DNA from: an uncultured Clostridia bacterium
GTDB lineage: Bacteria > Bacillota > Clostridia > Christensenellales > Borkfalkiaceae
Assembly: GCA_944368925.1 (NCBI GenBank)
Contig: CALVXG010000007.1
Span: forward strand, 53,714 to 117,713
DNA length: 64,000 nt
Direction: 5' to 3'
The position numbers and the translations under genes were made by a program. The notes below the pieces were generated by a model. That model was not told the origin of the DNA. It did not search any database and saw only the letters and a list, made by a program, of their open reading frames with translations. Below, one piece after another: positions 7,548 to 61,960 of this stretch. Position 1 is the first letter of the stretch; every line of letters starts with the position of its first letter.

Positions 7548-7608
7548 TGTTTCCCCCTTCAAAGCGGGCAAATTTTTTTCGTTCGGGAAAAAAATTGCGC
7601 TTTTTTTA

Positions 7609-9700: not shown

Positions 9701-9729
9701 TTGATTTTGGCGGGAAAAAGTGATAGAAT
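9701..9729 (+). promoter_or_regulatory. Promoter of prepilin-type gene 1
   Basis: TTGATT (9701), 17-base spacer, TAGAAT (9724). The block AGTGATAGAATAAACACG around the -10 is shared with the other two prepilin promoters (12139 and 16829) and contains a GTGA...CAC inverted repeat. Confidence 0.82.
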
Positions 9730-9746
9730 AAACACGAAATAACCGC

Positions 9747-9787
9747 AAGACAGCCGCGGCTGTCTTTTTTGCACAAGCAAAAAAGAC
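9747..9787 (+). promoter_or_regulatory. Double-hairpin leader, copy 1 (terminator overlapping a second hairpin)
   Basis: Right after the promoter a near-perfect palindrome (9747-9766, AAGACAGCC/GGCTGTCTT) runs into a six-T tract and so has the form of an intrinsic terminator. Its 3' half plus the T tract is also the 5' arm of a second hairpin, 9762-9772 pairing with 9777-9787 (GTCTTTTTTGC/GCAAAAAAGAC, loop ACAA). The two helices exclude each other. The ribosome site lies about 40 bases downstream. Confidence 0.75.
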
Positions 9788-9835
9788 GCGATCTAACGGC
9801 GAAAAAGCGGAAAAAACAAAAAGGAGAGTAAAAGT

Positions 9836-12052
9836 ATGGCAAAGAAGCTGAAAAGAGCATTTACGATCGTAGAACTTGTGATCGTGATTGCGGTGATCGC
9901 GATTCTGGCGGCGGTGCTGATCCCGACGTTCACGACGCTGATCGACAAAGCGAACCAGTCGGCGGACACGTCGAACGTAAAGAACATGAACACGATTTTG
10001 TCTATGGACGAAACGACGAACGGGAAACCGAAGACGATGCACGACGCAGTGAAAGTGATCCGTGAAGGCGGATACGATCTGGAGAAGCTGACGCCGACGG
10101 GGCAGGGATATGATATCGTATGGGACCAGGACGCGAACAGACTGCTGATGGTGAACGGGGATGAAGTAATTTTCGGCGAGACGGAAAAGAACGCAAACGA
10201 AAAGCATCTTTGGGTAGTGGTCGACAGTGCGGAAAAGATCGCGGCAACGGGTTACAGCGTATATCTGACGGATGTTTTTGAGGGCACAGTGACGGCGGAG
10301 CAGGGCGTAGACGTCGGCTCGAACGAAGACATCACAAAAGTTACATATAATACGGCAGAAGAGCAGAACGTAAAGATCCGCACGAATGGCGGCGCGTTGG
10401 TAGTAAATGCGGCGGCGGCGACGGTAGCGCACTATGACGCAGCGGCGAGTGTAGACATTCAGGCTGTTGCCAAAGAATCGTATCATGAATACGGCACGGT
10501 AGCGGGTAACATCACGTTGAAGCAGGGACGCTTTGTAGCGGAAGACAAATCATCTGCGGCGGCGGTCATCGTAACGGCAACGGATGTAAATGCTGTTGAA
10601 ATCGTTATCAACGACACAACGAAAACGTGGAGCATAGCGGCAGAAAATGACACTGTTTCGAAAGGTCTTGCGGGTATTGTAAGCGGCAATAAGGCGAACG
10701 CGGAAATAGCGGAAAATCCTGTAGTATCAGGGTTTGCAGGCGGTGTTGGCACAGAAAGCAGTCCTTATCAAATTGCAACGACGGAACAATTTTTCAATAT
10801 TAGTTTGTTTTCAAACGAAATGAAGAGTGGTAAAGGTTATTATTTTAATTTAGTTGCTGACATTCAAGCGCCTAAAGAAACTGTAGATTATTTCTCGGGT
10901 GAATTGAACGGGGATAAAGGAAACGGAGAAAATTATAAAATTTACATTTCAGATGAATGCGGCGGGTCGTATGGTACTATTTTTGATAGTGCTTATTTTG
11001 GAAATGTAAGCTTTAAGAATTTAGACTTGGTTTATACAGGGACGAGTGCGTATTCACTGTGCTATTTTGTAGGAACAAAGAGCAATGATTATCAGGCAAG
11101 TATGGAAAACATAGTTGTATATGCAGATAATGATCAAACTATGGTTACAGGGTATGGTTATAGTGCTTTTTGTGTCCAGGCATTAGGGAATATAAAGTTT
11201 ATAAATTGTGTTTCAAAAATTGACTGTGTAGTAGAGGAAGGCGGCTATAGAGGAATAATTATAGGTAATTTTATTATAGCAAACTATGCTAATAATATTG
11301 CATTTATTAATTGTAGAAACGAGGGGGCAGTTTCTACATCTTATACAGGATTCTTTCTTGCCAACAGAAATGCTATAACATCAATTACTTTAGTGGATTC
11401 ACAAGCGGAATTGATAAATAAAACTATCGGTACAGCTTATATCTATGTTGAAAATTGTAGAAATGACGGGACAATGTTTGGAGCCGTTTCTTGTGGGGCT
11501 TTTGGTAAGACCAGCGGCAATGCGGATGCGGTTATTGATTCACTCAATGCAGAAATAGTCGAAAGCGGAAAATTTTATGCAGGTAGAATGTCCCGTGGTT
11601 CTTATAGTCCAGAGTTTGTATTGGAAGATAAAATGGTGAAGGTTTTTCCTGGTGATGATGTTCCTGTTGCTGCTGAATACATAGTGGTTTATGCTGTTTC
11701 TACGGGATTTAGTGCGGCAGATGGAAAGAGTGCAGGTAGCTCATATTTTCAGGTGCAAATAGTTTTGGATTCTTCTTTGCAGACAGAATATGTGTCGAAA
11801 ATTATGCTTGATACGGATTATACAGGTTCTTTAAACTCGGATGATGTTCGTGAAGATGTTTATGGTAATCAGTATTATTTAGTTCAAGGTGATGATGGCT
11901 TTAAGACTGCAGTTGTGGTTAAAGAATCGTTAATAAATAATTTTGGCAACGGAAGTGTAGATGTAACAATAGGGTCATTGCCGAGATATAGCTTGCAGAT
12001 ACGAAGCGATGGACAGTTGGTCGGTCAAGTTGATGGTTTAAAGGAAAATTAA
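9836..12052 (+). CDS. Large prepilin-type surface protein 1 (N-methylation domain, variable C-terminal region)
   Basis: 738 aa. The N-terminus MAKKLKRAFTIVELVIV is a class III signal: basic leader, cleavage expected between A and F, Glu at +5, then a hydrophobic helix to about residue 31. Prepilin peptidase would process it and a type IV pilus/T2SS-like machine would export it; none of those genes is in the window. Residues 1-180 are identical at DNA level to the next paralogue. A coiled DUF-like region follows, and from about residue 300 an F-A-G-G-x-G-T-xx-S-P-Y-x-I segment (GLUG/adhesin-like motif) starts a beta-rich tail with repeated short strands, as in a beta-helix. Codon use shifts from GC-rich to AT-rich at about nucleotide 10740. 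Ribosome site AAGGAGAG. Probably an adhesin or pilus-tip protein. Confidence 0.82.
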   Translation: MAKKLKRAFTIVELVIVIAVIAILAAVLIPTFTTLIDKANQSADTSNVKNMNTILSMDETTNGKPKTMHDAVKVIREGGYDLEKLTPTGQGYDIVWDQDANRLLMVNGDEVIFGETEKNANEKHLWVVVDSAEKIAATGYSVYLTDVFEGTVTAEQGVDVGSNEDITKVTYNTAEEQNVKIRTNGGALVVNAAAATVAHYDAAASVDIQAVAKESYHEYGTVAGNITLKQGRFVAEDKSSAAAVIVTATDVNAVEIVINDTTKTWSIAAENDTVSKGLAGIVSGNKANAEIAENPVVSGFAGGVGTESSPYQIATTEQFFNISLFSNEMKSGKGYYFNLVADIQAPKETVDYFSGELNGDKGNGENYKIYISDECGGSYGTIFDSAYFGNVSFKNLDLVYTGTSAYSLCYFVGTKSNDYQASMENIVVYADNDQTMVTGYGYSAFCVQALGNIKFINCVSKIDCVVEEGGYRGIIIGNFIIANYANNIAFINCRNEGAVSTSYTGFFLANRNAITSITLVDSQAELINKTIGTAYIYVENCRNDGTMFGAVSCGAFGKTSGNADAVIDSLNAEIVESGKFYAGRMSRGSYSPEFVLEDKMVKVFPGDDVPVAAEYIVVYAVSTGFSAADGKSAGSSYFQVQIVLDSSLQTEYVSKIMLDTDYTGSLNSDDVREDVYGNQYYLVQGDDGFKTAVVVKESLINNFGNGSVDVTIGSLPRYSLQIRSDGQLVGQVDGLKEN

Positions 12053-12084
12053 TTTTGTTTCTTTATAACTTTCATTAATTACTA

Positions 12085-12118
12085 AAAAAGCCGCGACGCG
12101 AATGCGTTGCGGCTTTTT
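12085..12118 (+). terminator. Intrinsic terminator of prepilin gene 1
   Basis: Stem GCCGCGACGC (12090-12099) with GCGTTGCGGC (12104-12113), GAAT loop, five Ts after and six As before, so it could work both ways. Confidence 0.88.
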
Positions 12119-12138
12119 GGTTTATGTATGAAAAACAT

Positions 12139-12167
12139 TTGATTTTTATAACAGAAAGTGATAAAAT
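12139..12167 (+). promoter_or_regulatory. Promoter of prepilin-type gene 2
   Basis: TTGATT (12139), 17-base spacer, TAAAAT (12162), followed by AAACACGG; nearly the same as the promoter of gene 1. Confidence 0.82.
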
Positions 12168-12184
12168 AAACACGGAAAAACCGC

Positions 12185-12225
12185 AAGACAGCTGCGGCTG
12201 TCTTTTTTGCTTGTGCAAAAAAGAC
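12185..12225 (+). promoter_or_regulatory. Double-hairpin leader, copy 2
   Basis: First hairpin 12185-12192/12197-12204 (AAGACAGC/GCTGTCTT) ends in a T tract; second hairpin 12200-12210/12215-12225 (GTCTTTTTTGC/GCAAAAAAGAC) reuses the 3' arm and the Ts. The loop of the second hairpin is TTGT, the exact reverse complement of the ACAA in copy 1. Confidence 0.75.
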
Positions 12226-12275
12226 GCGATTTAACGGCGAAAAAGCGGAAAAAACAAAAAAAGGAGAGTAAAAGT

Positions 12276-14390
12276 ATGGCAAAGAAGCTGAAAAGAGCAT
12301 TTACGATCGTAGAACTTGTGATCGTGATTGCGGTGATCGCGATTCTGGCGGCGGTGCTGATCCCGACGTTCACGACGCTGATCGACAAAGCGAACCAGTC
12401 GGCGGACACGTCGAACGTAAAGAACATGAACACGATTTTGTCTATGGACGAAACGACGAACGGGAAACCGAAGACGATGCACGACGCAGTGAAAGTGATC
12501 CGTGAAGGCGGATACGATCTGGAGAAGCTGACGCCGACGGGGCAGGGATATGATATCGTATGGGACCAGGACGCGAACAGACTGCTGATGGTGAACGGGG
12601 ATGAAGTAATTTTCGGCGAGACGGAAAAGAACGCAAACGAAAAGCATCTTTGGGTAGTGGTCGACAGTGCGGAAAAGATCGCGGCAACGGGTTACAGCGT
12701 ATATCTGACGGATGTTTTTGAGGGCACAGTGACGGCGGAGCAGGGCGTAGACGTCGGCTCGAACGAAGACATCACAAAAGTTACATATAATACGGCAGAA
12801 GAGCAGAACGTAACGATCCGCACGAACGGCGGCGCACTGGAAGTGGACGCAGGGCTAGCGACGGTATCGCACTATGACACAGCGGCGAGTGTAGACATTA
12901 AAAAAGTAGCCGACGAATCGTATCATGAATACGGCACTGTCAATCAGATCAATGTAACGGCGGGTCGCGTCGTGTTGGAATCGGGTGCGGCAACGAAGAC
13001 TGTCTATGTCAAAGGTGAAGGCGTCAAGGTTGAATGGAAAGAAGATTCAAAACCGGTGGAAGTAGGTATCAGTACGATGGTAGATGATACAAAAGTTCAA
13101 TTACCTACCGATTCTGATGTTCCGGTAAAAGAGGTAGATGAAGAGGTTTCTTCTTTGTTCGCGGGCGGTTTAGGAACGGCAGGAAGTCCTTATCAGATCG
13201 CAACGGCAGAGCAGTTTGAAAATATTAATGATTTGTTCGGTAACTCGGCTATTATTTATTATCAACTTATAAATGATAATATTGATTTAGCGGAGACTGA
13301 AACACATATTGGTCAATGGGAACATGAGGCAACCATTGGTAATCTTAAAAATGCAATCATTGATGGCAATAATTATAAGCTGATTGCAAAAGAAGGTGTT
13401 GCTATATTTGGAGATTGTCAAGGGACTATTGTTTTTGAAAATTTGCAAGCTGAAATTAAAAACTGCCCTATGGTTGCTGCTGCGTATAGAGGCGCAGATA
13501 TGACTTTTGAAAATGTGACAGTTAGCGGAGATTACTATGCGAATGATGGCGGCAACATTGGTATATTTTTGGTATATGGCTGGGGCGATTTAACATTTAA
13601 AAATTGTTTAAATTTGGCAAATTTATCAACAACAAGTTATAATGCAATTTTTGTCGGATACTCCTTTGGGGGGGATTGGGTATTTGAAAACTGTACAAAT
13701 AGCGGAAAACTTGTTTGCGATAAGGCAGCAATGTTTGTTGGTAATGATAGTCAAGTGAACAGTGGAGCAAATCCTAAACTTACATTGAATATTACTAATT
13801 GTAAAAATACGGGAGAAATACGCAGTACAGACGTAAGAAATTATGGTTGGAATTGCTATGTTGCTGTTGCAAAGCATCCTGAAAAGGTTAATATTTTTAT
13901 TAATGGCGTGCAAAAGTCTTTTGATGATGTTTTGGATAACGGATTTGTACAAGGGCCTAACGATACAAGTTTGAGCATAGTTAAAAATGAAGACGGAACA
14001 TTCACTATAACAAAATCCAGCTATGATAATACTGCTTATTATAAAATAAGTATAGGACTTTATACGCAGCTGCTTCCTAGCGGAACAAATAGATTTTATG
14101 TGAATGAAGTTATCAACGCAGAAGAACTCGTTTCGGGAAGTTATATTTCAAAGATAAAAGAACTGAAATTTGTAAGTAAATATGATGAACTTGGAAACGA
14201 AGTGGAAGGATTGGGAGAAATACAACAAGATATTTGCGGAAATGATATAGTGACTATTGACGGCATTGAGTATTTCTTGATGAATCAAGAAGGAGAATAT
14301 TTGAAAGGAATCAGTGCTGCACAAATGATTACTGTATATGCTTATGATGAAAATGATAACTTGATTTCTTCAGCAAATTTAGTAAAATAA
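12276..14390 (+). CDS. Large prepilin-type surface protein 2 (paralogue with a different C-terminal half)
   Basis: 704 aa. The first 538 bases are identical to gene 1 (class III signal, hydrophobic helix, first 179 residues), then the two diverge abruptly. The central part keeps the SYHEYGTV motif seen in all three paralogues. From about residue 294 an S-L-F-A-G-G-L-G-T-A-G-S-P-Y-Q-I segment starts a GLUG-like, beta-strand-rich tail with repeated NC/NCTNSG-type turns. The tail is AT-rich and its order of strands differs from gene 1. This is the pattern expected of paralogues kept alike at the 5' end by gene conversion while the exposed part varies. ATG 12276 has AAGGAGAG. It ends in a bidirectional terminator facing the EF-G-like gene. 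Confidence 0.82.
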   Translation: MAKKLKRAFTIVELVIVIAVIAILAAVLIPTFTTLIDKANQSADTSNVKNMNTILSMDETTNGKPKTMHDAVKVIREGGYDLEKLTPTGQGYDIVWDQDANRLLMVNGDEVIFGETEKNANEKHLWVVVDSAEKIAATGYSVYLTDVFEGTVTAEQGVDVGSNEDITKVTYNTAEEQNVTIRTNGGALEVDAGLATVSHYDTAASVDIKKVADESYHEYGTVNQINVTAGRVVLESGAATKTVYVKGEGVKVEWKEDSKPVEVGISTMVDDTKVQLPTDSDVPVKEVDEEVSSLFAGGLGTAGSPYQIATAEQFENINDLFGNSAIIYYQLINDNIDLAETETHIGQWEHEATIGNLKNAIIDGNNYKLIAKEGVAIFGDCQGTIVFENLQAEIKNCPMVAAAYRGADMTFENVTVSGDYYANDGGNIGIFLVYGWGDLTFKNCLNLANLSTTSYNAIFVGYSFGGDWVFENCTNSGKLVCDKAAMFVGNDSQVNSGANPKLTLNITNCKNTGEIRSTDVRNYGWNCYVAVAKHPEKVNIFINGVQKSFDDVLDNGFVQGPNDTSLSIVKNEDGTFTITKSSYDNTAYYKISIGLYTQLLPSGTNRFYVNEVINAEELVSGSYISKIKELKFVSKYDELGNEVEGLGEIQQDICGNDIVTIDGIEYFLMNQEGEYLKGISAAQMITVYAYDENDNLISSANLVK

Positions 14391-14430
14391 AAGAATACCG
14401 CCGCAATTTATTTTGCGGCGGTATTCTTTT
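14391..14430. terminator. Bidirectional terminator after prepilin gene 2
   Basis: 14-bp perfect stem (14393-14406/14413-14426) followed by TTTT and preceded by AAAA. Confidence 0.9.
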
Positions 14431-14452
14431 ATCATATCGGCTTTTGGCATAT

Positions 14453-14488
14453 AAAAACCTGCCCTTTTCGCAAAGGGCAGGTTTTTTA
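14453..14488. terminator. Bidirectional terminator, mainly for the EF-G-like gene
   Basis: 13-bp perfect stem (14455-14467/14472-14484), TCGC loop, Ts on both strands. Confidence 0.9.
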
Positions 14489-14518
14489 TATCAATTTCTC
14501 AATTGTTTTTATTATTGA

Positions 14519-16585
14519 TCAACCCTGTTGCTCTGCGGCGCGCATCTTGATGATTTTTTCTGCTTCGGGGGCAGGTACTTCTTCGTATCTTGCGAGTTCT
14601 GCCATAAATTTTCCGCGGCCCTGGGTCATACTCCGCAGGTCTGTCGCGTATTTCTGGATTTCGGCCTGGGGAGCTTCGGCGTTTACGATCTGCAAACCTT
14701 CCATCATGTCTATGCCGAGGATTCTGCCGCGGCGTTTGTTCATGTCGCCCATGATATCGCCCAAGAAGTTTTCGGGAATGGCGATTTTCAGCCGCATAAT
14801 GGGTTCGAGCAGGCAGGGGGAGGCATTTTTCAAACCGTCTTTAAACGCGAGCGCGGCGGCGAGTTTGAATGCCATTTCCGAGGAATCGACGTCATGATAG
14901 CTTCCGTCGTATAGCACGGCGCGCAGGCCTGTAACGGGGTAACCCGCCAGAACGCCGTGCGGCAGGCATTCGATGAGACCTTTTTCCACGGCGGGGATAT
15001 ACTGTTTGGGAACGGATCCGCCGACCACTTCTTCCGCGAATTCGAAATCGCCGTCGAAGGGTTCGAATCGAACTTTGCAGTGTCCGTACTGGCCGTGTCC
15101 GCCCGATTGTTTTTTATGTTTACCTTCGGCTTCCACTTTTTTGCGGATGGTTTCGCGGTAGGCGATTTTCGGGGTTTTGAGTGCGGCGGAAACGTTGAAT
15201 TTTGCTTTCAGTTTCTTATTGATGACGTCGAGGTGGGTTTCGCCCTGGCCGCCGATGAGCATTTCGCCGGTCTCGTTATTTTTGGTAACGGTGAAGGTAT
15301 AATCTTCTTCGGCGAGTTTATTCAGGCCCTGGAAAATTTTATCTTCCTCGCCTTTCTTTTCGGCGTAGATTGCCATCCAGAGCACGGGGCGGGGGAAGTG
15401 AATGGGGTCGAATCTGATTTTTTCGGATTCGTCGCAGAGCGTATCGCCGGTGTTGGTTGCGTTGAGTTTATTGACGGCGCCGATATCACCGGCGGTGAGT
15501 TCGCTGACAGGTTCCTGTTTTTTGCCTTTGAGAAGGTAGATCTGGTTGATCCGTTCGGTTTTTCCGGTGGTCGAATTATAGACGGTCGAGCCGGCTTTGA
15601 GCGAACCGCGGAAGACTTTCATGACGTTGAGTTTTCCGACAAAGGGGTCGACCACGGTTTTGAATACCTGAGCGGCGAACGGTGCGTCGGTTTCGCAGGT
15701 GATGCCGACCAATTCGTCCTTATCGACGGCGGAAGCGAGCATTTCCTGACGTTCTTCGGCGCTGGGCATATATTTGACGATCTCGCCCATGAGATTGATG
15801 ATCCCGCGGTTCTGCAAGGCGGAGCCTGCCATGACGGGAATGGTATTGACGTTATAAATTCCTTTTCGGATCCCGTGAATGATCTCTTCTTTCGAGAGCG
15901 AGCCTTCGCCGAAGAATTTATCGAGCAGGGCATCGTCATTTTCTGCGGCGGTTTCGGTGAGGCTTGCCTGCATATCGGCGAGCGTCTGTTTCATGGACTC
16001 GGGAATGGGTATTTCCTTGAGTCCTTCCTCGGAAAATCGGAATGCTTTTTCGGTCAGTGCGTTGATATACCCGATCATCTTGTTTCCGTCCATGAGCGGG
16101 ATCTGTATGGGTGCGATTTTCCCGGCGTATTTCTCGGACAAAGCGGCTACCGTACCTTTATAATCGGCGTTTTCTTTATCCATGCCGTTGATGAACAGAA
16201 CCATCGGTTTCTTGTTTTTCAGACATTTTTCGATGGCTTTTTCCGCGCCGACGCTGACCGATCCCGATGCCGAAGTCACGATCAATGCCCCGCCCGCGGC
16301 GCGCAGCGCTTCGTTCTCTTCCCCTTCAAAATCGTAAAACCCGGGAACGTCCAATAAATTGATCTTCACTCCTTCCCACATGGTGTACGCGAGCGACAGG
16401 GAAATCGACATCTTCCTTGCAATTTCCTGCTCGTCGTAGTCGGTGACGGTATTGCCATCGGTCACTTTGCCGAGACGATCCGTCGCTTTGCCGTTGAAAA
16501 GAATCGCTTCGCAGACAGAGGTTTTACCTTCTCCGCTGTGACCGATCACTGCAATGTTGCGAATGTCAGCGCTCTTGATGCTCAT
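14519..16585 (-). CDS. EF-G-like translational GTPase (FusA paralogue)
   Basis: 688 aa with the full EF-G domain order. The G-domain motifs depart from canonical EF-G: G1 is GHSGEGKT (15-22) instead of GHIDAGKT, G3 is DVPGF (79-83) instead of DTPGH, and G4 is NGMD (133-136) instead of NKMD. The histidine that activates water in canonical EF-G (PGH) is replaced by Phe. Domain IV still carries HKKQSGGHGQYGHCKVRFEP, typical of EF-G. This fits the widespread second EF-G-like family of Clostridia and others, whose exact role (translocation backup, recycling or stress) is not settled. GGGAG precedes the ATG. It has its own promoter and a strong 5' UTR hairpin, and lies between prepilin genes 2 and 3 on the opposite strand. 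Confidence 0.88.
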   Translation of the reverse strand: MSIKSADIRNIAVIGHSGEGKTSVCEAILFNGKATDRLGKVTDGNTVTDYDEQEIARKMSISLSLAYTMWEGVKINLLDVPGFYDFEGEENEALRAAGGALIVTSASGSVSVGAEKAIEKCLKNKKPMVLFINGMDKENADYKGTVAALSEKYAGKIAPIQIPLMDGNKMIGYINALTEKAFRFSEEGLKEIPIPESMKQTLADMQASLTETAAENDDALLDKFFGEGSLSKEEIIHGIRKGIYNVNTIPVMAGSALQNRGIINLMGEIVKYMPSAEERQEMLASAVDKDELVGITCETDAPFAAQVFKTVVDPFVGKLNVMKVFRGSLKAGSTVYNSTTGKTERINQIYLLKGKKQEPVSELTAGDIGAVNKLNATNTGDTLCDESEKIRFDPIHFPRPVLWMAIYAEKKGEEDKIFQGLNKLAEEDYTFTVTKNNETGEMLIGGQGETHLDVINKKLKAKFNVSAALKTPKIAYRETIRKKVEAEGKHKKQSGGHGQYGHCKVRFEPFDGDFEFAEEVVGGSVPKQYIPAVEKGLIECLPHGVLAGYPVTGLRAVLYDGSYHDVDSSEMAFKLAAALAFKDGLKNASPCLLEPIMRLKIAIPENFLGDIMGDMNKRRGRILGIDMMEGLQIVNAEAPQAEIQKYATDLRSMTQGRGKFMAELARYEEVPAPEAEKIIKMRAAEQQG

Positions 16586-16639
16586 AATTGTACTCCCTTA
16601 TCGACGGACGCGCAAAAGATTTGGATTGAAAGACCTAGC

Positions 16640-16676
16640 CCGCCGCCGTCGGGGCTTTTCGCCCCGACGGCGGCGG
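16640..16676 (-). promoter_or_regulatory. 16-bp perfect hairpin in the 5' UTR of the EF-G-like gene
   Basis: Arms 16640-16655 and 16661-16676 pair completely, with a five-base loop (GAAAA on the mRNA). It lies between the promoter and the ATG, 55 bases before the start codon, without a T-run, so it is a UTR structure and not a terminator. Confidence 0.8.
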
Positions 16677-16697
16677 CAATGCGTCCGCTTCTTTTTT

Positions 16698-16726
16698 ATT
16701 ATAATATAGATTTTGCCCGATTTCAA
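16698..16726 (-). promoter_or_regulatory. Promoter of the EF-G-like gene
   Basis: Minus strand TTGAAA (16726-16721), 17-base spacer, TATAAT (16703-16698). Confidence 0.88.
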
Positions 16727-16828
16727 TAGGTAATTGAAAATTTTTTGCAAAAAATGCAAAAATGTAGCGAAACGAAAAAAAAGGAATTATGAAAGAAAAA
16801 TGAAAATCATGAAAGATATACAAAAAAC

Positions 16829-16857
16829 TTGCAAAATCAAAATAAAGGTGATAGAAT
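16829..16857 (+). promoter_or_regulatory. Promoter of prepilin-type gene 3
   Basis: TTGCAA (16829), 17-base spacer, TAGAAT (16852). GTGATAGAATAATCAC around the -10 is an inverted repeat, shared in degraded form with the promoters of genes 1 and 2. Confidence 0.82.
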
Positions 16858-16870
16858 AATCACGAAAGAA

Positions 16871-16909
16871 AAATACAGCCGGCTGTATTTTTTGCGCAAG
16901 CAAAAAATA
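16871..16909 (+). promoter_or_regulatory. Double-hairpin leader, copy 3
   Basis: Perfect 20-bp palindrome 16871-16890 followed by Ts, then an overlapping hairpin 16886-16895/16900-16909 (TATTTTTTGC/GCAAAAAATA, loop GCAA). Relative to copies 1 and 2 the stem bases GTC/GAC have become TAT/ATA on both sides of both helices, a compensatory change. Confidence 0.75.
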
Positions 16910-16952
16910 AATCGATTAAAAGCAGGCTGAAAAAAAGAAAGGAGAAGGAAGA

Positions 16953-19016
16953 ATGGTAAAGAAGCTGAGAAGGGCATTCACGATCGTGGAACTTGTAATC
17001 GTGATTGCGGTGATCGCGATATTGGCGGCGGTACTGATCCCGACGTTCACCTCGCTGATCCAGAAGGCGAACGTATCGAATGATACGCAGATTGTGCGCG
17101 AAATGAATACGGCACTGTCTATGGGAGAAGCGGACGGCAGACCCGAAGATATGGGGGATGTTTTGGATGTATTGTCCGAATATGGCGGATTTGATATGGC
17201 AAAACTCAACCCTTCGACGGACGGATATCTGTATGTATGGGAAAAAACTTCCAATCAGATTTTACTGATGGACGACAAGGGGGCGGTTGCTTTTAACGTC
17301 AAAGATTACGATGAGAGCAACTGGGAGTTGTATGTACCTGTTGCAAATACGCAAACCGCAGAAGCCATTTGTGCTTATGTTACAGAGGTCGGCGTTTATG
17401 TTACGGAAGATATGACATATGATTTTAATTTAAAAAATGTTGTACCTTTCCAAGTGGCAGACGGGAAGACGTTGACGGGAAATGTAACAATGGTCGGCAC
17501 GAATGCGATCACGACTACTGTAAGCGGTAATATTGTCGGAACGTTAACGATCAATAATGCGAACGCGGAAGTGTCCCATAACGGTACGGTAAATGCCGTA
17601 GTATTGACGGCTGTAAAATCTTCGAGCTACCACGAATACGGCACGGTCAAAGAAAGTTTTGAAGTGTCCAACGGCAGAGTGGTTATCGAAGAAAGTGCGA
17701 ACGTACCGCAGATAGCTGTTCCGTCTGATGCGGAAAACGTAAAGATCATGTCGAATTCGTTGCAGAATATTATCGTTTCGACTGAATCTGCGAACGTGAC
17801 TTTGGAGAATGGCTCGGGTAAATTGTTCTTGGACGGCTCGGCGGCGAACGCGGTTGCGGATAAAAACCAAAACAGCGAAAGCATGGTAACAAAAACGGTA
17901 GTAAACAATGCCGCTGAATTGAAAGCTGAATTTGCTAAAGAAAACGCGTATATCCAGTTGGGAGCAGATATTGTGTTGGCTACCAGCGATTTCGATGAAA
18001 CCGTTGCAGCAAGCGGAAGTTATCTTTATAATAGTATAAATACTTCCTCTATTTATTTGGATTTGAATGGTCACTATATCAAAGATCCGAACTATGATAC
18101 GTTTGGCTTTACAGATGCGAATAATAAAGGGCAGCAATTGATCGGAACGGTCGGCTCCATAACGATTGACGATACTTCCAGCGATTTGAGCGGAGCGATT
18201 TATGCAACGCGAAATTTGTTAAGGGCAGAAGGCAATGACGAAGCGAAGACCTTTGCGCAGATTAAGCAGGGGACATTCGTAACGAAATCTTATACAGGAG
18301 GGACTTGCCTGTACTTGTCTACGACTACGGTTATCATTGATAACTGTAACGTTTATTCAACTAATTTTGGTGTTTATATTGGAGAAAGCGGTAATACAGA
18401 AAGTGTAATCATAAATGGCGGCAAGGTAGTCGGTACGGCGAACAATGCAACGAAAATAAAGAATAACTTTGCGTATGCTTTTGTAATAGCATATTGCGTA
18501 GACGGAACAATAAATAATCTGACAGTTTACGGAATTCAAGGGGCCTTGTCTTTAAATGGTGGATCTGTTACTGTCAATGAAGGGTATTACGAAGCATCGG
18601 GCGTTGCCTATGATTTATATAAAAAGGCAACGGGCTTTGATGCGAAGGCAGAATATTTCGGGGATGGAGCAATACAAGACGGACACGTATACTATGGTGG
18701 TTATTTTGCCGGTGAAAATGAAGCAACAAACATTATTGTTAATGGCGGAACGTTTGTTTCTTCGGGAAGGAATGCCGTTAATGTAGGAAACTCTGCTGAC
18801 GGAGGAAAAGGCGAAACAGCGCGTGTGATTATTTACGGCGGCAAATATACAGGGAAAAATAGTGCTGTTGCGGTGGATGATAGACAGCTATACGGTTTAG
18901 GTGTGTTGGCAGTATATGGCGGAACATATTCTCACGATATTTCCAACATTATGAGCGACCTTGAACACTATGAATGCACGCAAGAAGGGGATGTGTTTGT
19001 AGTAAGAGCAAAATAA
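16953..19016 (+). CDS. Large prepilin-type surface protein 3
   Basis: 687 aa, same class III signal (VKKLRRAFTIVELVIV) and hydrophobic helix, then a related but more diverged segment (IQKANVSNDTQIVREMNTALSM, YLYVWEKTSNQILLMDDKG). The SSYHEYGTV block at about residue 220 aligns with genes 1 and 2. From about residue 320 the tail is a pectate-lyase-like beta-helix with repeated INGGKV, VNEGYYE, VNGGTFVSSGR and YGGKYTG turns, typical of surface right-handed beta-helices. Ribosome site AAAGGAGAAGG. The same leader architecture as in the paralogues suggests joint regulation. Function as adhesin or pilus-associated protein is inference. Confidence 0.82.
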   Translation: MVKKLRRAFTIVELVIVIAVIAILAAVLIPTFTSLIQKANVSNDTQIVREMNTALSMGEADGRPEDMGDVLDVLSEYGGFDMAKLNPSTDGYLYVWEKTSNQILLMDDKGAVAFNVKDYDESNWELYVPVANTQTAEAICAYVTEVGVYVTEDMTYDFNLKNVVPFQVADGKTLTGNVTMVGTNAITTTVSGNIVGTLTINNANAEVSHNGTVNAVVLTAVKSSSYHEYGTVKESFEVSNGRVVIEESANVPQIAVPSDAENVKIMSNSLQNIIVSTESANVTLENGSGKLFLDGSAANAVADKNQNSESMVTKTVVNNAAELKAEFAKENAYIQLGADIVLATSDFDETVAASGSYLYNSINTSSIYLDLNGHYIKDPNYDTFGFTDANNKGQQLIGTVGSITIDDTSSDLSGAIYATRNLLRAEGNDEAKTFAQIKQGTFVTKSYTGGTCLYLSTTTVIIDNCNVYSTNFGVYIGESGNTESVIINGGKVVGTANNATKIKNNFAYAFVIAYCVDGTINNLTVYGIQGALSLNGGSVTVNEGYYEASGVAYDLYKKATGFDAKAEYFGDGAIQDGHVYYGGYFAGENEATNIIVNGGTFVSSGRNAVNVGNSADGGKGETARVIIYGGKYTGKNSAVAVDDRQLYGLGVLAVYGGTYSHDISNIMSDLEHYECTQEGDVFVVRAK

Positions 19017-19023
19017 AAAAAAG

Positions 19024-19060
19024 AGAGGTCTTTCGCAGAAGCGAAAGACCTCTTTTTTTA
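19024..19060. terminator. Bidirectional terminator between prepilin gene 3 and tcdA
   Basis: 13-bp stem (19024-19036/19041-19053), AGAA loop, seven Ts after and eight As before. Confidence 0.92.
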
Positions 19061-19076
19061 TTTTTATGATTCTTTT

Positions 19077-19778
19077 TTACATTTTCAAAATATCCTGAAT
19101 GATTGTACCTGCGAGTAGCAGGCCTGCCATAGAGGGGACATAGGAGATGCTTCCGATGAATCGTTCGCCGTCTGCGGCGCGCGATTTATCGGGGGCGAGC
19201 GGTTTTTCTTCCGAATAGACGGCTTTTACGCCCGTAACGCCCCGCGCTTTCAATTCTCTGCGCATGATGCGTGCCAGCGGACATTCGCGCGTGTTTTCAA
19301 TGTCAGCCACGCGGAAGGCGTTTCCGTCCAGCTTGTTTCCTGCGCCCATGCTTGAGATCACTCGGATGCCTGCTTGCCTCGCCTTCTCGATCAGGCGGGC
19401 TTTCGCCTTGACGCTGTCGATACAGTCGGCTACATAGGTATAGTCGGAAAAATCAAAACCGTTTTCTGTTTTTTCGTCGAAAAAGCATTCTTTTGCACAG
19501 AAATTTCCGTTCGGACGGATGTCCAGGGCGCGCTCTTTCATGACCGCCGCTTTGTTTTTCCCGAGCGTGGAATGCAGGGCGATCAGCTGTCGGTTCAGGT
19601 TGCTTTCCGCTACGTTGTCGCCGTCAATAAAGGTCAGTTTTCCGATCCCTGCCCGAACCAGCGCTTCCGCGGCGTACGATCCCACGCCGCCGATCCCGAA
19701 CACCGCAACGTGTGCGCCCTGCAGTTTTTTAAAATTTTCTTCGCCGATCAGCGCGATTTCTCGGATAAATGTCTGCAT
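19077..19778 (-). CDS. tcdA: tRNA threonylcarbamoyladenosine dehydratase (ThiF/E1-like)
   Basis: 233 aa. It would activate t6A37 of ANN-decoding tRNAs with ATP to form cyclic ct6A. The ATP-binding Rossmann motif G-I-G-G-V-G-S-Y-A-A-E-A-L-V-R lies at residues 29-43, followed by the conserved IDGDNVAESNLNRQ. The central C-I-D and the late SMGAGNKLDG are TcdA/CsdL hallmarks that separate it from ThiF and MoeB. It is three bases downstream of the Crp/Fnr gene on the same strand, so the two probably share a transcript; I see no functional link. Confidence 0.88.
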   Translation of the reverse strand: MQTFIREIALIGEENFKKLQGAHVAVFGIGGVGSYAAEALVRAGIGKLTFIDGDNVAESNLNRQLIALHSTLGKNKAAVMKERALDIRPNGNFCAKECFFDEKTENGFDFSDYTYVADCIDSVKAKARLIEKARQAGIRVISSMGAGNKLDGNAFRVADIENTRECPLARIMRRELKARGVTGVKAVYSEEKPLAPDKSRAADGERFIGSISYVPSMAGLLLAGTIIQDILKM

Positions 19779-19781
19779 TGT

Positions 19782-20435
19782 TTACCTTCCCGCCTCCGCA
19801 GGCTTGCGCAGTTTTACGTTGCGCCTGTCCAGTTCGATCAGTCCGTCGTCGCTCATTCGTTTCAGTTCCCGCACCATCGCGCTGCGATCCACACATATAT
19901 AATCCGCAAGGCTCGTCTGCGAAAAGGGCAGGGTAAAATACGAGCTCTTGTTCTTCGCCGCCAGCATCGAAAAATACGCCGTCAGCTTCTCGCGGATCGT
20001 ACGCCTGCTTAATATCTCCAAATGTTCCGAAAGCGCCTGCGTTTTTTCGCTCATCAGCTGCACAAGGTTCGCCACCACCACCGAATGATGCGTACAGGCG
20101 TTCGGACATCGTTTGATAATGTGTTCGTAATCAATGTACAAAATTTCACAGTCCTCATCCGCCGACAGGTAAAAATTCGCGTCCGCCCACGAAAATCCCA
20201 ATACGTCACCGAATACCCCGCCCTTTTTCAGCTGCTCAAAAATCGTCCGCACTCCGTTGACGTCCGTCTTGATCATGCTCAGCTTCCCGCTCTGCACAAC
20301 CCCGACCCGCCCGCTCGGCATCGGAATCTCTTCCCCCTTCCCGTACGCGCGAACCGTCGTCTTGAAACACGTCATCATCGCGGCGTATTCCTGCTTCGTC
20401 ACTCCGTCAAAAAGCGATGTCGTAACTTCTTCCAT
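19782..20435 (-). CDS. Crp/Fnr-family transcription regulator
   Basis: 217 aa: a cyclic-nucleotide-binding-like beta barrel (residues about 15-125, with QLKKGGVFGDVLGF in the position of the phosphate-binding cassette but lacking the cAMP Arg-Ser pair) and a C-terminal winged helix (FSQTSLADYICVDRSAMVRELKRM). No cysteine cluster of the Fnr type is seen, so the ligand is unknown. ATG 20435 is chosen for the GGAGAAGG site; an earlier ATG exists in frame. A 14-bp palindrome between promoter and start may be its own operator. Confidence 0.82.
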   Translation of the reverse strand: MEEVTTSLFDGVTKQEYAAMMTCFKTTVRAYGKGEEIPMPSGRVGVVQSGKLSMIKTDVNGVRTIFEQLKKGGVFGDVLGFSWADANFYLSADEDCEILYIDYEHIIKRCPNACTHHSVVVANLVQLMSEKTQALSEHLEILSRRTIREKLTAYFSMLAAKNKSSYFTLPFSQTSLADYICVDRSAMVRELKRMSDDGLIELDRRNVKLRKPAEAGR

Positions 20436-20449
20436 CGTACCTTCTCCCT

Positions 20450-20463
20450 GTTGCATTTGCAAC
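20450..20463. promoter_or_regulatory. Possible autoregulatory operator of the Crp/Fnr gene
   Basis: GTTGCATTTGCAAC is a perfect 5+4+5 palindrome in the 5' UTR, 15 bases before the ATG. The arm spacing fits a Crp-type dimer site; binding is not shown. Confidence 0.45.
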
Positions 20464-20476
20464 AAATCATGCGTAT

Positions 20477-20505
20477 AGAATACCGCATCGCCAAAAAAAA
20501 GTCAA
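20477..20505 (-). promoter_or_regulatory. Promoter of the Crp/Fnr-tcdA operon
   Basis: Minus strand TTGACT (20505-20500), 17-base spacer, TATTCT (20482-20477). Confidence 0.78.
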
Positions 20506-20563
20506 TAAAAATCTCCGTTTTCTTTCAAAAAAATTCTGTGAAAAATTGCCGTCCCGCCGCCGC

Positions 20564-20603
20564 AAAAAAAGAGCCGCCCCGCAGTCGGAATCTGCGGGGC
20601 GGC
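20564..20603 (-). terminator. Terminator of queT
   Basis: On the minus strand an 11-bp stem (20603-20593 with 20583-20573) is followed by TCTTTTTTT. Confidence 0.88.
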
Positions 20604-20622
20604 GGTAAGACCGCGCAAGCGG

Positions 20623-21207
20623 TTATTTATTTTTCTGTTGTACGGCAGTATCCTGCAGGGGAGCACCGACGGAGTTGTCGCAGAACGCGGAAACGCCTTT
20701 TTTGCGCATGGAATGAATAAACGCATAGAGTGGTGCGCCGAGTGCATAGACCCAAAGCGCTTCGGTCACGGCAAGCGAGCCGAAGTACGTCCAATAGGTC
20801 GCGGCGAGGGTGCCGTAGGAGAGATCTCCGCACAAGAACACGATGATCACGGGAATGACGAACGCATTGATGAGAACGGGGAACAAGCCGCCGATCGCGA
20901 CGCGCAGCACGTGATTGCGGAAGAGTTTTCCCATGCCCCAGGTACCGAGCGCGGCGAAGAGGGTAGCCAAAGAGCCGACGAACACGTCGTAGACCCAGAA
21001 GGGGGACGCGATATTGCTGAGCATGCAGCCTATGTACAGGGCAGGGATCGCTTCCGGGAAAAAGAGCGGAAGGATGGTGAGCGCTTCGGCGGGGCGGATC
21101 TGTAAGAATCCGTTGTAAGCGAGTGCGCCGAAGGCGTAGGTGAGTGCGACGTACAGGGCGGCGATGATGCCGGCTCTGCACAACATCTTGGTTGTGAGTT
21201 TTTTCAT
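20623..21207 (-). CDS. queT: QueT-type queuosine precursor transporter (ECF S component)
   Basis: 194 aa, almost all hydrophobic, with six predicted membrane helices. LQIRPAEALTILPLFFPEAIPALYIGCMLSN is close to the QueT signature around residues 35-66. It would take up preQ0/preQ1 or queuine as substrate-binding part of an energy-coupling factor transporter; the ECF ATPases are not in the window. The 51-base 5' UTR can fold into a small pseudoknot with an A-rich tail as in preQ1 riboswitches, which supports the assignment. Own promoter and terminator. The C-terminal tail after residue 165 is polar and unusual. Confidence 0.82.
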   Translation of the reverse strand: MKKLTTKMLCRAGIIAALYVALTYAFGALAYNGFLQIRPAEALTILPLFFPEAIPALYIGCMLSNIASPFWVYDVFVGSLATLFAALGTWGMGKLFRNHVLRVAIGGLFPVLINAFVIPVIIVFLCGDLSYGTLAATYWTYFGSLAVTEALWVYALGAPLYAFIHSMRKKGVSAFCDNSVGAPLQDTAVQQKNK

Positions 21208-21218
21208 TATTCAGTTTA

Positions 21219-21257
21219 CCTCGGTTGTTTTTAGGTAGTGTTTTCCGAAAACCTACC
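21219..21257 (-). promoter_or_regulatory. Candidate preQ1 riboswitch in the queT leader
   Basis: On the RNA: GGUAG (21257-21253) pairs with CUACC (21238-21234), loop CGG (21247-21245) can pair with CCG (21224-21222) across an A-rich linker UAAAAACAA, giving an H-type pseudoknot that ends next to the AGG of the ribosome site. Size, A-rich third loop and position before queT match the class I preQ1 riboswitch. Caveat: GUUUU/AAAAC inside the first loop can also pair, which is not typical. Confidence 0.5.
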
Positions 21258-21264
21258 AAACGAA

Positions 21265-21293
21265 AGGATAGCAAAAACGCAAAAAAATGTCAA
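21265..21293 (-). promoter_or_regulatory. Promoter of queT
   Basis: Minus strand TTGACA (21293-21288), 17-base spacer, TATCCT (21270-21265). The transcript should begin within a few bases of the pseudoknot. Confidence 0.82.
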
Positions 21294-21374
21294 GTGAAAT
21301 TAGAAATAATGCAAAAAATGTTTAATTTTTGCGAAAAAGTAAAATTTTGTCATAAAATAAAAAAGCGCAACGTT

Positions 21375-21485
21375 TTGATTGTTTTTTCAAATATGCTATA
21401 TACTATCGCAGCATAAAAATAACAATTTAAAGTATTGCAAACGAGAGCTCTCGTTTTTGTTTCCCTTGGTCGGGAAACAAAAACG
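21375..21485 (+). promoter_or_regulatory. Promoter and double-hairpin leader, copy 4
   Basis: TTGATT (21375) with TATACT (21399, 18-base spacer), then a perfect 18-bp palindrome 21439-21456 running into Ts, overlapped by a 14-bp hairpin 21452-21465/21472-21485 (CGTTTTTGTTTCCC pairing with GGGAAACAAAAACG). Same architecture as copies 1-3 with a wholly different stem sequence. Unlike them it is not followed by a ribosome site and prepilin start. Confidence 0.7.
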
Positions 21486-21492
21486 ACCTTAA

Positions 21493-21918
21493 TTGAAAGT
21501 GAGTGTAGAACTTACAACGTGGAAAAGTGTTGAGTTTTCCATTGCGGATAAGGCAGATGTATTGTATGGGCGTATTCTTACGGATTATTATTTATGTGTA
21601 GCAATATTTGAAGGACTGACGATTACAGATTATACGGAAACGGGGGATAAAGTAACTGTAGTTCCTACAAAAGACAATGTGCAGGTAACCGTGCTTAATG
21701 CAAGTTATCCTTTTTCCCGAATGATATATAAGAAGTGTGACGGAAAAGTATATTTGTGCAGCGATCAGGCGGCAAACAATAAAGGAAATTATACTGTCAC
21801 GGTAAAATATAGTTATACCGGTCTGAACGGACAGACCATTTCATCGGAAGAAAGGACTTTCACATTCAGCGGATCGACAAGTGATAAATCTTGGCTTTGG
21901 AATTTCGGTAACGTATAA
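21493..21918 (+). pseudogene. Remnant beta-rich coding segment behind leader copy 4
   Basis: An open frame of 141 codons starts at a TTG seven bases after the leader hairpin, with no ribosome site, no class III signal and no signal peptide. Its content (YTVTVKYSYTGLNGQTISSEERTFTFSG) is beta-strand-like, as in the tails of secreted proteins. The simplest reading is that a prepilin-type or other surface gene lost its 5' coding part, leaving promoter and leader joined to an internal fragment. It overlaps the next frame by 38 bases. It could also be a real small protein with an atypical start; I cannot exclude that. Confidence 0.45.
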
Positions 21919-22525
21919 TGACAAAAAAGTAAAAATCATTCTGATTGTATTGGGTGCGGCGGCGGTATTGATCGCCGCCGCGCTGACGGTATTTTTCGTT
22001 TGGCGCAATATCGAAGGTCAGAAAATTTCGGGGATCCAGGTATCGTCATATCCAGAAAAAGTGCGTTACTATGTCGGCGACAAAGCGGATTTTGAAGGAC
22101 TGACGGTGCAGGTTTTGCGCAAAAACGGAGAATTTTATCTTGTGGACGGGCAGGAATGTGAAATCACGGGTTTTGACAGTTCGGAACCAGTTGAAAGGCA
22201 GAAAATTCTTGTGCGGTACGAAGATTTTTCCTGCTCGTTTACGGTACAGATCGTGGCTTTGCCCACGCCCGTAAAGACGCTTGCGTCGGTGGAAGTGGAA
22301 GTTTTGCCGAAGACGGAATACAAAGTGGGGGAAAGCCTGGATACGAAGGGGGGCGTTCTCAAACTCACGTATACGGACGGTTCGGTATTTCGGGTCGATC
22401 TTTTGAACAGGTTTGTCAGCGGGTTCACGTCCGAGGAGCCGAACGAAGCGCTCGTTTTAACGGTGAAATATTCCGAAAACGGCGTGCTTGTGCAGACGAC
22501 GTACACAGTCGTCGTTCAGTCCTGA
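21881..22525 (+). CDS. Membrane-anchored protein with two Ig-like (Big_3 type) domains
   Basis: About 214 aa if the GTG at 21881 is used; the true start is uncertain because no good ribosome site is visible. One N-terminal membrane helix (KIILIVLGAAAVLIAAALTVFF) is followed by two repeats of the bacterial Ig-like type: ISGIQVSSYPEKVRYYVGD..., then LASVEVEVLPKTEYKVGE..., each ending in a TVKY/VRYED strand and the ...TYTVVV closing strand. Such domains occur in cell-wall and surface proteins and serve adhesion or spacing. The stop is one base from the following gene's ATG, so the two are probably co-translated. Confidence 0.6.
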   Translation: MINLGFGISVTYNDKKVKIILIVLGAAAVLIAAALTVFFVWRNIEGQKISGIQVSSYPEKVRYYVGDKADFEGLTVQVLRKNGEFYLVDGQECEITGFDSSEPVERQKILVRYEDFSCSFTVQIVALPTPVKTLASVEVEVLPKTEYKVGESLDTKGGVLKLTYTDGSVFRVDLLNRFVSGFTSEEPNEALVLTVKYSENGVLVQTTYTVVVQS

Positions 22526-61921: not shown

Positions 61922-61960
61922 AAAGCGCCGCGCTTTCAAAGTGAAAGCGCGGCGCTTTTA
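61922..61960 (+). terminator. Terminator of the lysR-type gene
   Basis: 16-bp perfect stem 61922-61937/61943-61958, then TTATATGTTTT. Confidence 0.88.

Follow-up and report, generated by a model that had tools for sequence, protein, structure and literature searches.

Background

The element discussed here is a double hairpin that stands four times in a stretch of 64,000 nucleotides (nt) from an uncultured Clostridia bacterium of the family Borkfalkiaceae (GenBank assembly GCA_944368925.1, contig CALVXG010000007.1, positions 53,714 to 117,713 of the forward strand; the window below is this whole stretch, and positions count from its first letter). Several described systems also place hairpins in the leader of a bacterial gene. 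In dual-hairpin antitermination of the ANTAR type the two hairpins carry conserved hexanucleotide loops. LoaP-dependent leader elements are leader hairpins that act on RNA polymerase. Stabilisers of the 5' type place a hairpin a few nt from the mRNA 5' end and thereby lengthen the half-life. Attenuators as a class, including trp, the riboswitches and ANTAR, set a terminator against an antiterminator. Hairpin-stabilised pauses, whether of the his/trp type or the NusG pauses of Bacillus subtilis, have their hairpin 10-13 nt upstream of the pause ends (PMC12288461). In the pilA2 message of Clostridium perfringens, RNase Y cleavage inside an operon creates an end at which a single weak stem-loop is predicted (PMC7395162).

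Like the pause leaders, the element described here has a hairpin 10-13 nt upstream of a near-constant leader position, but here there are two exclusive hairpins, the first mostly loop-free, the motif is TTTAWCRGC and not TTNTTT, and the pause is only predicted. Like the attenuators it has two exclusive leader hairpins and, in many copies, a T tract nearby; unlike them it combines a weak hairpin, an inconstant T tract, a competitor strand downstream of that tract and near-equal fold energies. Its loops are mostly 0 nt (hairpin 1) and 3-4 nt (hairpin 2), in contrast to the hexanucleotides of ANTAR. It shares with pilA2 a structured 5' leader on pilin-type genes of Clostridia, but its double palindromic design stands behind its own promoter-like site. 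The likeness to LoaP-dependent leaders lies in the leader hairpins. We reject LoaP-type antitermination since none of the 40 genus genomes has a match over the family cut-off; the weaker match found once each in 36 of the 40 we read as the housekeeping NusG, and 13 of 14 control genomes have one likewise. The literature we searched on Borkfalkia, exclusive leader hairpins, pilin leaders, NusG pauses and stem-loop stabilisers holds no recognised counterpart; print outside that search may differ.

By the sequence comparisons presented here, the window copies belong to an element family of the genus Borkfalkia (Clostridia). The order of the parts, the strict and exclusive pairing and the near-constant motif spacing in many copies are properties of the sequences themselves. 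What the element does is a harder question, and we will argue that it is probably something other than an ordinary on/off terminator.

The four copies in the window

From 5' to 3' the element reads x1 · x' · z · loop · z' · x2, followed by a spacer and then the motif. Hairpin 1 is x1 paired with x', and hairpin 2 is the end of x' plus z paired with z' plus x2. The start of x1 is repeated in x2 because both pair with the end of x'. The parts in the window are as follows.

9701..9729, + strand: copy 1 promoter-like site, TTGATT, 17 nt, extended -10 TGA-TAGAAT
9747..9766, + strand: copy 1 hairpin 1, perfect 20-bp palindrome x.x', loop-free
9762..9787, + strand: copy 1 hairpin 2, loop ACAA; GTCTT common to hairpin 1
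9792..9800, + strand: copy 1 3' motif, TCTAACGGC
12139..12167, + strand: copy 2 promoter-like site, TTGATT, 17 nt, TGA-TAAAAT
12185..12204, + strand: copy 2 hairpin 1, centre TGCG, one T/G mismatch
12200..12225, + strand: copy 2 hairpin 2, loop TTGT
12230..12238, + strand: copy 2 motif, TTTAACGGC
16829..16857, + strand: copy 3 promoter-like site, TTGCAA, 17 nt, TGA-TAGAAT
16869..16892, + strand: copy 3 hairpin 1, 24-bp palindrome, loop-free
16886..16909, + strand: copy 3 hairpin 2, loop GCAA
16915..16923, + strand: copy 3 motif, ATTAAAAGC, scores 6/9
21399..21404, + strand: copy 4 candidate -10, TATACT, non-extended type
21439..21456, + strand: copy 4 hairpin 1, 18-bp palindrome, loop-free
21451..21486, + strand: copy 4 hairpin 2, 15 bp, loop TTGGTC
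21488..21496, + strand: copy 4 weak motif match, CTTAATTGA, 5/9, a score often reached by chance

The double hairpins lie where the sequence-only reading had put them when the coordinates are read again, and the stem change it described, GTC/GAC in copies 1 and 2 against TAT/ATA in copy 3, is there as well. Copy 4 does have an unrelated sequence with the same design. The promoter it saw ahead of every copy is a promoter-like site with an extended -10 for copies 1-3, but copy 4 offers only the non-extended candidate. Hairpin 1 is loop-free in three of the four copies, the centre of copy 2 having the single mismatch. Copies 1 and 2 arose by duplication (identity 87% over 122 nt and 99% over the following 300 nt) and copy 3 is a remoter relative at 65%, which leaves about two or three independent cases in the window. 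Against shuffles, the RNA folding of leaders 1 to 4 gives z = -3.9, -2.6, -3.5 and -2.9. The hairpin 2 loops of copies 1 and 2 (ACAA at 9773-9776 and TTGT at 12211-12214) are reverse complements in leaders that are otherwise near-identical; perhaps a small inversion at the hairpin could explain this.

A scanner for the design, defined as a perfect stem of at least 7 overlapping a perfect stem of at least 10 on either strand, found nothing in 40 first-order Markov shuffles of the window, both strands searched. The real window gave two extra matches, one at 61922 (both strands, hairpin 1 loop of 1, no motif) and one on the minus strand of copy 3. The 378-kb contig C1 gave six, four of which are the design, all loop-free, and two of which have a loop of 6. 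A perfect-stem scanner misses imperfect cases, and we saw two by eye: L040, with one T-G in hairpin 2, and L191, with one mismatch in hairpin 1 (L and G numbers are our own for loci and genomes).

Two exclusive helices that covary

The counts below use a parsed set of 52 elements unless another is named. It was reduced from 57 rows by hand removal of five (L032 at 4216, L092 at 1514, L132 at 1337 and at 1320, L098 at 1499), the last of which may be the genuine half of a back-to-back element. The 57 rows had already excluded cases with k1+m2 below 18, mirror-strand readings, hairpin 1 loops above 1 nt except copy 2, all rows of L018, L067, L081, L137 and L138, which were judged to be chance, and the window match at 61922. 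The set is thus limited by the hand-removed rows and the perfect-stem scanner, as well as by draft assemblies and many related sequences.

The claim that both helices covary is borne out in relatives. Among 42 aligned matches 97.2% of 607 pairing cells pair, compared with 77.8% in shuffles, and 15 of 15 pairs are changed on both sides. These counts are biased by an alignment made to fit the structure and by kinship among the sequences. The covariation score is 0.470 against 0.115 in shuffles, and none of 500 shuffles reaches any of the measures. The signal is destroyed when the partner strand is slid. There is no G-U in 290 cells of hairpin 2, while hairpin 1 has 7 G-U and 17 unpaired in 317 cells; the search models began from perfect cases, which may add to the scarcity of wobble pairs.

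Exclusive pairing holds, and overlap of the hairpins is the rule. We scanned 1.18 Mb of loci, some overlapping, for a loop-free palindrome with a hairpin, allowing gaps of up to 8 nt, and all 67 of the 67 distinct pairs overlap, though a few were counted twice where both hairpins are palindromic. The overlap is 1-2 nt in 4 pairs, 3-8 nt in 60 and 14-17 nt in 3. Most of these loci had been gathered with the element models, and only contig C1 and the window are independent of the element. One Markov shuffle of these loci, scanned in the same way, contained no such pair. Since pairing is kept while the letters change, this is probably a real control element, one that does not resemble an ordinary on/off terminator.

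It could be argued that template switching between inverted repeats keeps such repeats perfect with little function of their own. The copy 2 loop, as the reverse complement of the copy 1 loop, would fit, and so would the tandem copies of the unit in L091 and L127. But the placement between promoter and gene, the separate 3' motif and the overlap in 67 of 67 pairs would all be left unexplained, and we think this quite unlikely. A mobile repeat, like a repetitive extragenic palindrome (REP) or a miniature inverted-repeat transposable element (MITE), was rejected as well: the copies have differing sequences, and most of them are followed by a co-oriented frame.

Promoter and 3' motif

In 28 of the 52 elements the 45 nt ahead of x1 contain an extended -10. 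The same site occurs in 4 of 52 stretches further upstream, in 2 of 50 downstream and in 5.8% of shuffles. When the search is extended to 60 nt there are 29 elements with an extended -10, which ends 6-24 nt before x1 in 25 and 35-42 nt before it in 4.

The motif consensus is TTTAWCRGC, often a few nt after hairpin 2. Scored against TTTAACGGC within 9 nt after x2, it reaches at least 7 of 9 in 23/52 elements, compared with 0.7% of shuffles and 0/50 and 0/52 in two control stretches; the consensus was picked from the same elements, so these controls understate chance somewhat. A score of at least 5, reached by 47/52, carries little weight alone since about 30% of shuffles and 23/50 and 22/52 of the control stretches reach 5 too. 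All 47 of these elements have G at position 8. The spacer to the motif is 4-5 nt in 24 of the 35 elements scoring at least 6. The motif might also be a general leader signal without hairpins: it has 14 matches within 150 nt upstream of 274 C1 genes against 4.8 expected, and 6 of these at 50-74 nt against 0.8 expected; one of the 14 is an element, one gene is counted twice, and all are on the same contig strand. That x1 pairs with the motif was rejected on contradictory tests (4-nt p 0.011, 3-nt p 0.9998).

Energetics and the attenuator reading

The first interpretation of these leaders was an attenuator or switch, in which hairpin 1 and a T tract end transcription unless hairpin 2 wins. The exclusive pairing of the two hairpins is what such a device needs. 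A T run behind hairpin 1 is visible by eye in all four window copies, as had been claimed, but it is not constant across the family: the 9 nt at the 3' edge of hairpin 1 hold at least 6 T in 33/52 elements and at least 7 T in 16/52. Hairpin 1 is weak. Alone it has a median of -6.5 kcal/mol (n=52), compared with -25.4 for 58 sites of hairpin plus T tract on contig C1. The printed elements have x2 on the 3' side of hairpin 1 and the T run, so the competing strand is not yet made when termination would occur. We therefore reject termination, and with it attenuation, as the common function on hairpin strength, T tract and order of synthesis. Single copies could still terminate, but as an account of the element a terminator/antiterminator switch is poorly supported and we hold it very improbable.

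The two states are close to balanced. In state A hairpin 1 is whole and z:z' is short; in state B hairpin 2 is whole and hairpin 1 is short. Computed as RNA over the 52 elements, the energy difference between the states has a median of 0.6 kcal/mol, with the tandem L127 as an outlier. The minimum-energy folds of the near-identical copies 1 and 2 are of opposite types. An outer helix round the element is weak (z 2.3, p 0.015, with 47 of the 52 elements used; a variant gives z 1.76, p 0.03 and the control z 0.5), and x1 against all downstream sequence gives z 2.4, p 0.015, in a group of five tests that includes the outer helix. The folds predicted for copies 1 and 2 do show this helix, as CCGC/GCGG. 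An anti-Shine-Dalgarno role of x' was rejected, giving no signal (z -0.29).

The loop-free centre

The strangest part of the element is the loop-free centre of hairpin 1, and no explanation offered fully accounts for it. When elements are chosen by a motif score of at least 7/9, with loops up to 8 allowed, hairpin 1 is without a loop in 28/31. Copy 2 (T/G), L073 (CC) and the tandem L091 are the three exceptions, although each single copy within L091 is loop-free. With the score lowered to at least 6 the count is 43/53, and the other seven exceptions are the mirror-strand L003, L091, L096 and L219 and the apparently unrelated L081, L154 and window position 7607. Below 6 it is 27/97, with mirror readings and chance included. 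Loci found by their prepilin protein have loop-free elements in 14 of 15 cases. Background hairpins of contig C1 and the window have loop sizes that peak at 3-4, and hairpin 2 loops are mostly 3-4 nt. Four LytTR leaders (L182, L190, L195, L208) also have a hairpin 2 without a loop.

A folded hairpin cannot contain the two innermost pairs, yet palindromic centres (tetramers) of nine kinds occur; these kinds are drawn from a set filtered on loop length, so its 50/52 palindromic centres are circular. Between similar genes the innermost bases change together, GGC/GCC in L103 and GGA/TCC in L128. This co-change, the contrast with background loops, the four loop-free second hairpins and the lack of G-U in hairpin 2 across the family all favor the idea that the palindrome acts double-stranded, as a protein site or as two paired RNA copies. 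Against it, most hairpin 2 loops are 3-4 nt, the order promoter, hairpin 1, hairpin 2, motif, gene is mostly fixed, and palindromes within one genome share so little sequence that a single protein reader is unlikely. With nine central tetramers and arms of 8-13 bp of differing sequence we reject an operator of one DNA-binding protein; there is a loose bias, seen by eye, for x1 to be purine-rich and to end in GCC. We consider an element of this DNA or duplex kind rather improbable.

It is conceivable, and we put it forward only as speculation, that topology (x x' z L z' x2, motif) and not sequence defines this class of leader, with a built-in three-strand exchange, a private barcode for each gene and pairing between leaders. 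The 5' and 3' copies of one sequence would compete for a single partner with almost no energy difference. If this is true, leaders of one mRNA species could also pair with each other through the loop-free palindrome.

A putative pause and its competitors

The distance from the end of hairpin 2 to bases 6-7 of TTTAWCRGC is about 10-12 nt. This spacing fits a hairpin-stabilised pause, and we propose a putative pause. Our best guess, a tentative one based on geometry that may well be wrong, is that hairpin 2 and the motif pause RNA polymerase with the hairpin exchange as a timer. The Borkfalkia element would be a 5'-leader RNA element between promoter and gene. Hairpin 1 would form first as the RNA leaves RNA polymerase; hairpin 2 would then capture the 3' strand of hairpin 1, a strand exchange at almost no energy cost. 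RNA polymerase would be held at the motif, just before the ribosome site is made, and the exchange between hairpins would set the length of the pause. The element would then tune leader folding or translation coupling and not the transcript end.

Several observations weigh against this proposal. As many as 24 of the 52 elements lack an extended -10 within 45 nt, and 17 of 52 score below 6 for the motif, including two of the design on contig C1 (L028 and L029). The motif differs from the NusG motif of B. subtilis, which is TTNTTT at -11 to -6, a string we saw by eye, and did not count, in single cases such as L051 and L129. Two orthologues of an ABC ATPase (L213 and L214, one of them in the window's own genome) have no hairpins at all. 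A pause also leaves the loop-free hairpin 1 and the G-U-free hairpin 2 unexplained.

Almost as probable as pausing, though still a doubtful reading, is a role in protecting or processing the mRNA end. Hairpin 1 would shield the 5' end from decay enzymes, the exchange to hairpin 2 would expose that end, and the motif would be a processing or protein-binding site. In part of the elements the predicted transcript starts are close to x1, given the 25 of 29 extended -10 sites that end 6-24 nt before it. A functional precedent is pilA2, a clostridial pilin mRNA reported to be controlled by RNase Y cleavage in the 5' untranslated region (PMC7395162), and stem-loops are reported to set mRNA processing in Ruminiclostridium (PMC10311766). 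But the weakness of hairpin 1 and the distance of 35-42 nt in 4 of the 29 speak against a shield, and the idea calls for neither a second exclusive hairpin nor a loop-free centre.

Distribution of the family

Covariance model R1 has matches in 29 of the 40 genus genomes at E≤0.05, the window's own genome included, and in 24 of 40 at E≤0.01, as counted from the result table. Model R2 finds 19 matches in the own genome at E≤1, of which nine reach E<6e-5. Across 200 genomes of the order it has a match at E≤0.003 in 10, own included. Among the ten order-level loci from outside the genus, L156 alone shows the design; in L157 the hairpins overlap, with a loop of 4, and the motif is absent. Two of six genomes in the family of L156 are matched, where L156 and L219 have the design with a -10 upstream and L158 does not. 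With stricter filters R2 matched none of the 12 genomes listed from other genera in the own family, and at class level, where such filters lose weak matches, only the own genome among 391 was matched at E≤3e-4.

A search of genome contigs with an exact pattern gave 17 stretches, three from Candidatus Borkfalkia faecipullorum. Nine of the 17 were inspected; the two Clostridia ones have the palindrome and the seven others do not. We reject the wider taxa for this reason, the matches without palindrome being from Moraniibacteriota (two), Saprospiraceae (two), Saccharibacteria, a 'Proteobacteria' bin and L169. A viral origin was rejected because the pattern was not found in the viral contigs searched. 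Against Rfam (4227 families) the window gave only a tRNA at or above the gathering score, and ten element loci at E up to 2 gave only trpB, below threshold at 33.7 bits against a cut-off of 59 and away from the element (L060, 1819-1897).

Genes behind the elements

The leaders had been described as standing in front of prepilin-type loci. This is right for copies 1-3, whose genes are:

9836..12052, + strand: prepilin-type gene after copy 1 (P0001), N_methyl (Pfam), 738 aa
12276..14390, + strand: prepilin-type gene after copy 2, Pfam N_methyl, 704 aa
16953..19016, + strand: prepilin-type gene after copy 3, Pfam N_methyl, 687 aa

Copy 4 is not followed by a prepilin. The frame behind it (21493-22525) has no Pfam match and no recognisable start and is possibly a truncated surface gene; the next frame encodes a Big_3 Ig-like protein. 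The first two prepilin-type proteins are identical over 179 residues (9836-10372, 12276-12812) and then diverge. A conserved head with exchanged tails suggests cassette-like recombination of surface proteins. Separately, a long GC-rich hairpin at 16630-16680 lies upstream of a minus-strand frame (14519-16585) whose start resembles an EF-G-type GTPase, judged by eye only and without a search.

A search with the prepilin N-terminus found 12 loci in the own genome at E≤1. The design is in the leader of seven of the first eight (L001-L005, L007, L008), and in L006 it lies about 500 nt upstream, ahead of another frame. The scanner detected no design in L009-L012, the four weaker matches. Together with 23 loci from relatives this makes 35 prepilin-type loci, of which the perfect-stem scanner finds the design in 15, so it is not general before prepilins. 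Of the 20 others, L037 and L053 are cut by the contig end and L040 is the imperfect element seen by eye.

Prepilins alone are also too narrow a scope. The design stands ahead of a solute-binding protein gene (L016, SBP_bac_8), a purine-type permease (L029, Xan_ur_permease), a protein of secreted appearance (L028), LytTR regulators and an ABC ATPase. Among the 30 LytTR loci fetched (from 48 matches in 8 genomes), seven have it in the leader or up to about 200 nt upstream (L181, L182, L186, L190, L195, L205, L208). Of the four ABC ATPase orthologues at E≤1e-110, L211 and L212 have it and the other two, named above, do not. From this pattern of presence and absence the element looks like a module that can be gained or lost between promoter and gene. 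LytTR response regulators themselves number 8-15 each in four Borkfalkia genomes (G001, G016, G019, G054) at E≤1e-40, and none or one in the remaining 36 genus genomes at the same threshold.

For the placement ahead of genes we used 53 rows, four of the five hand-removed rows being left out. In 48 of them a co-oriented frame of at least 60 aa begins within 330 nt, a count for which no control was run. A ribosome-site match is present in 41 of these 48 frames, at 30-75 nt in 30 of the 41.

Some unusual arrangements were seen along the way. In the own genome, L220 (1500-1560) has an element with the near-perfect motif TTTAACGGA ahead of a short frame, near a stretch that by eye resembles a recombinase. 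L098 (1478-1562) has one palindrome with hairpin 2 and a motif-like stretch on either side, which makes a back-to-back element; by eye, its flanking genes are one of LacI type and one for a lipoprotein, and operator-like AAAACGTTTT repeats are close by. The whole unit is duplicated in tandem in L091 (1468-1542) and in L127 (2416-2488), the latter at a contig end.

Implications

A plain RNA hairpin switch needs neither a mostly loop-free centre nor near-equal energies, so the question becomes whether selection acts on RNA, on DNA or on the mutation process. The covariance models built here show a route to finding the element elsewhere. If our reading is true, this is a leader that keeps its fold and an exclusive alternative while its letters turn over, and one gut genus would be using it for surface proteins, nutrient uptake and response regulators.

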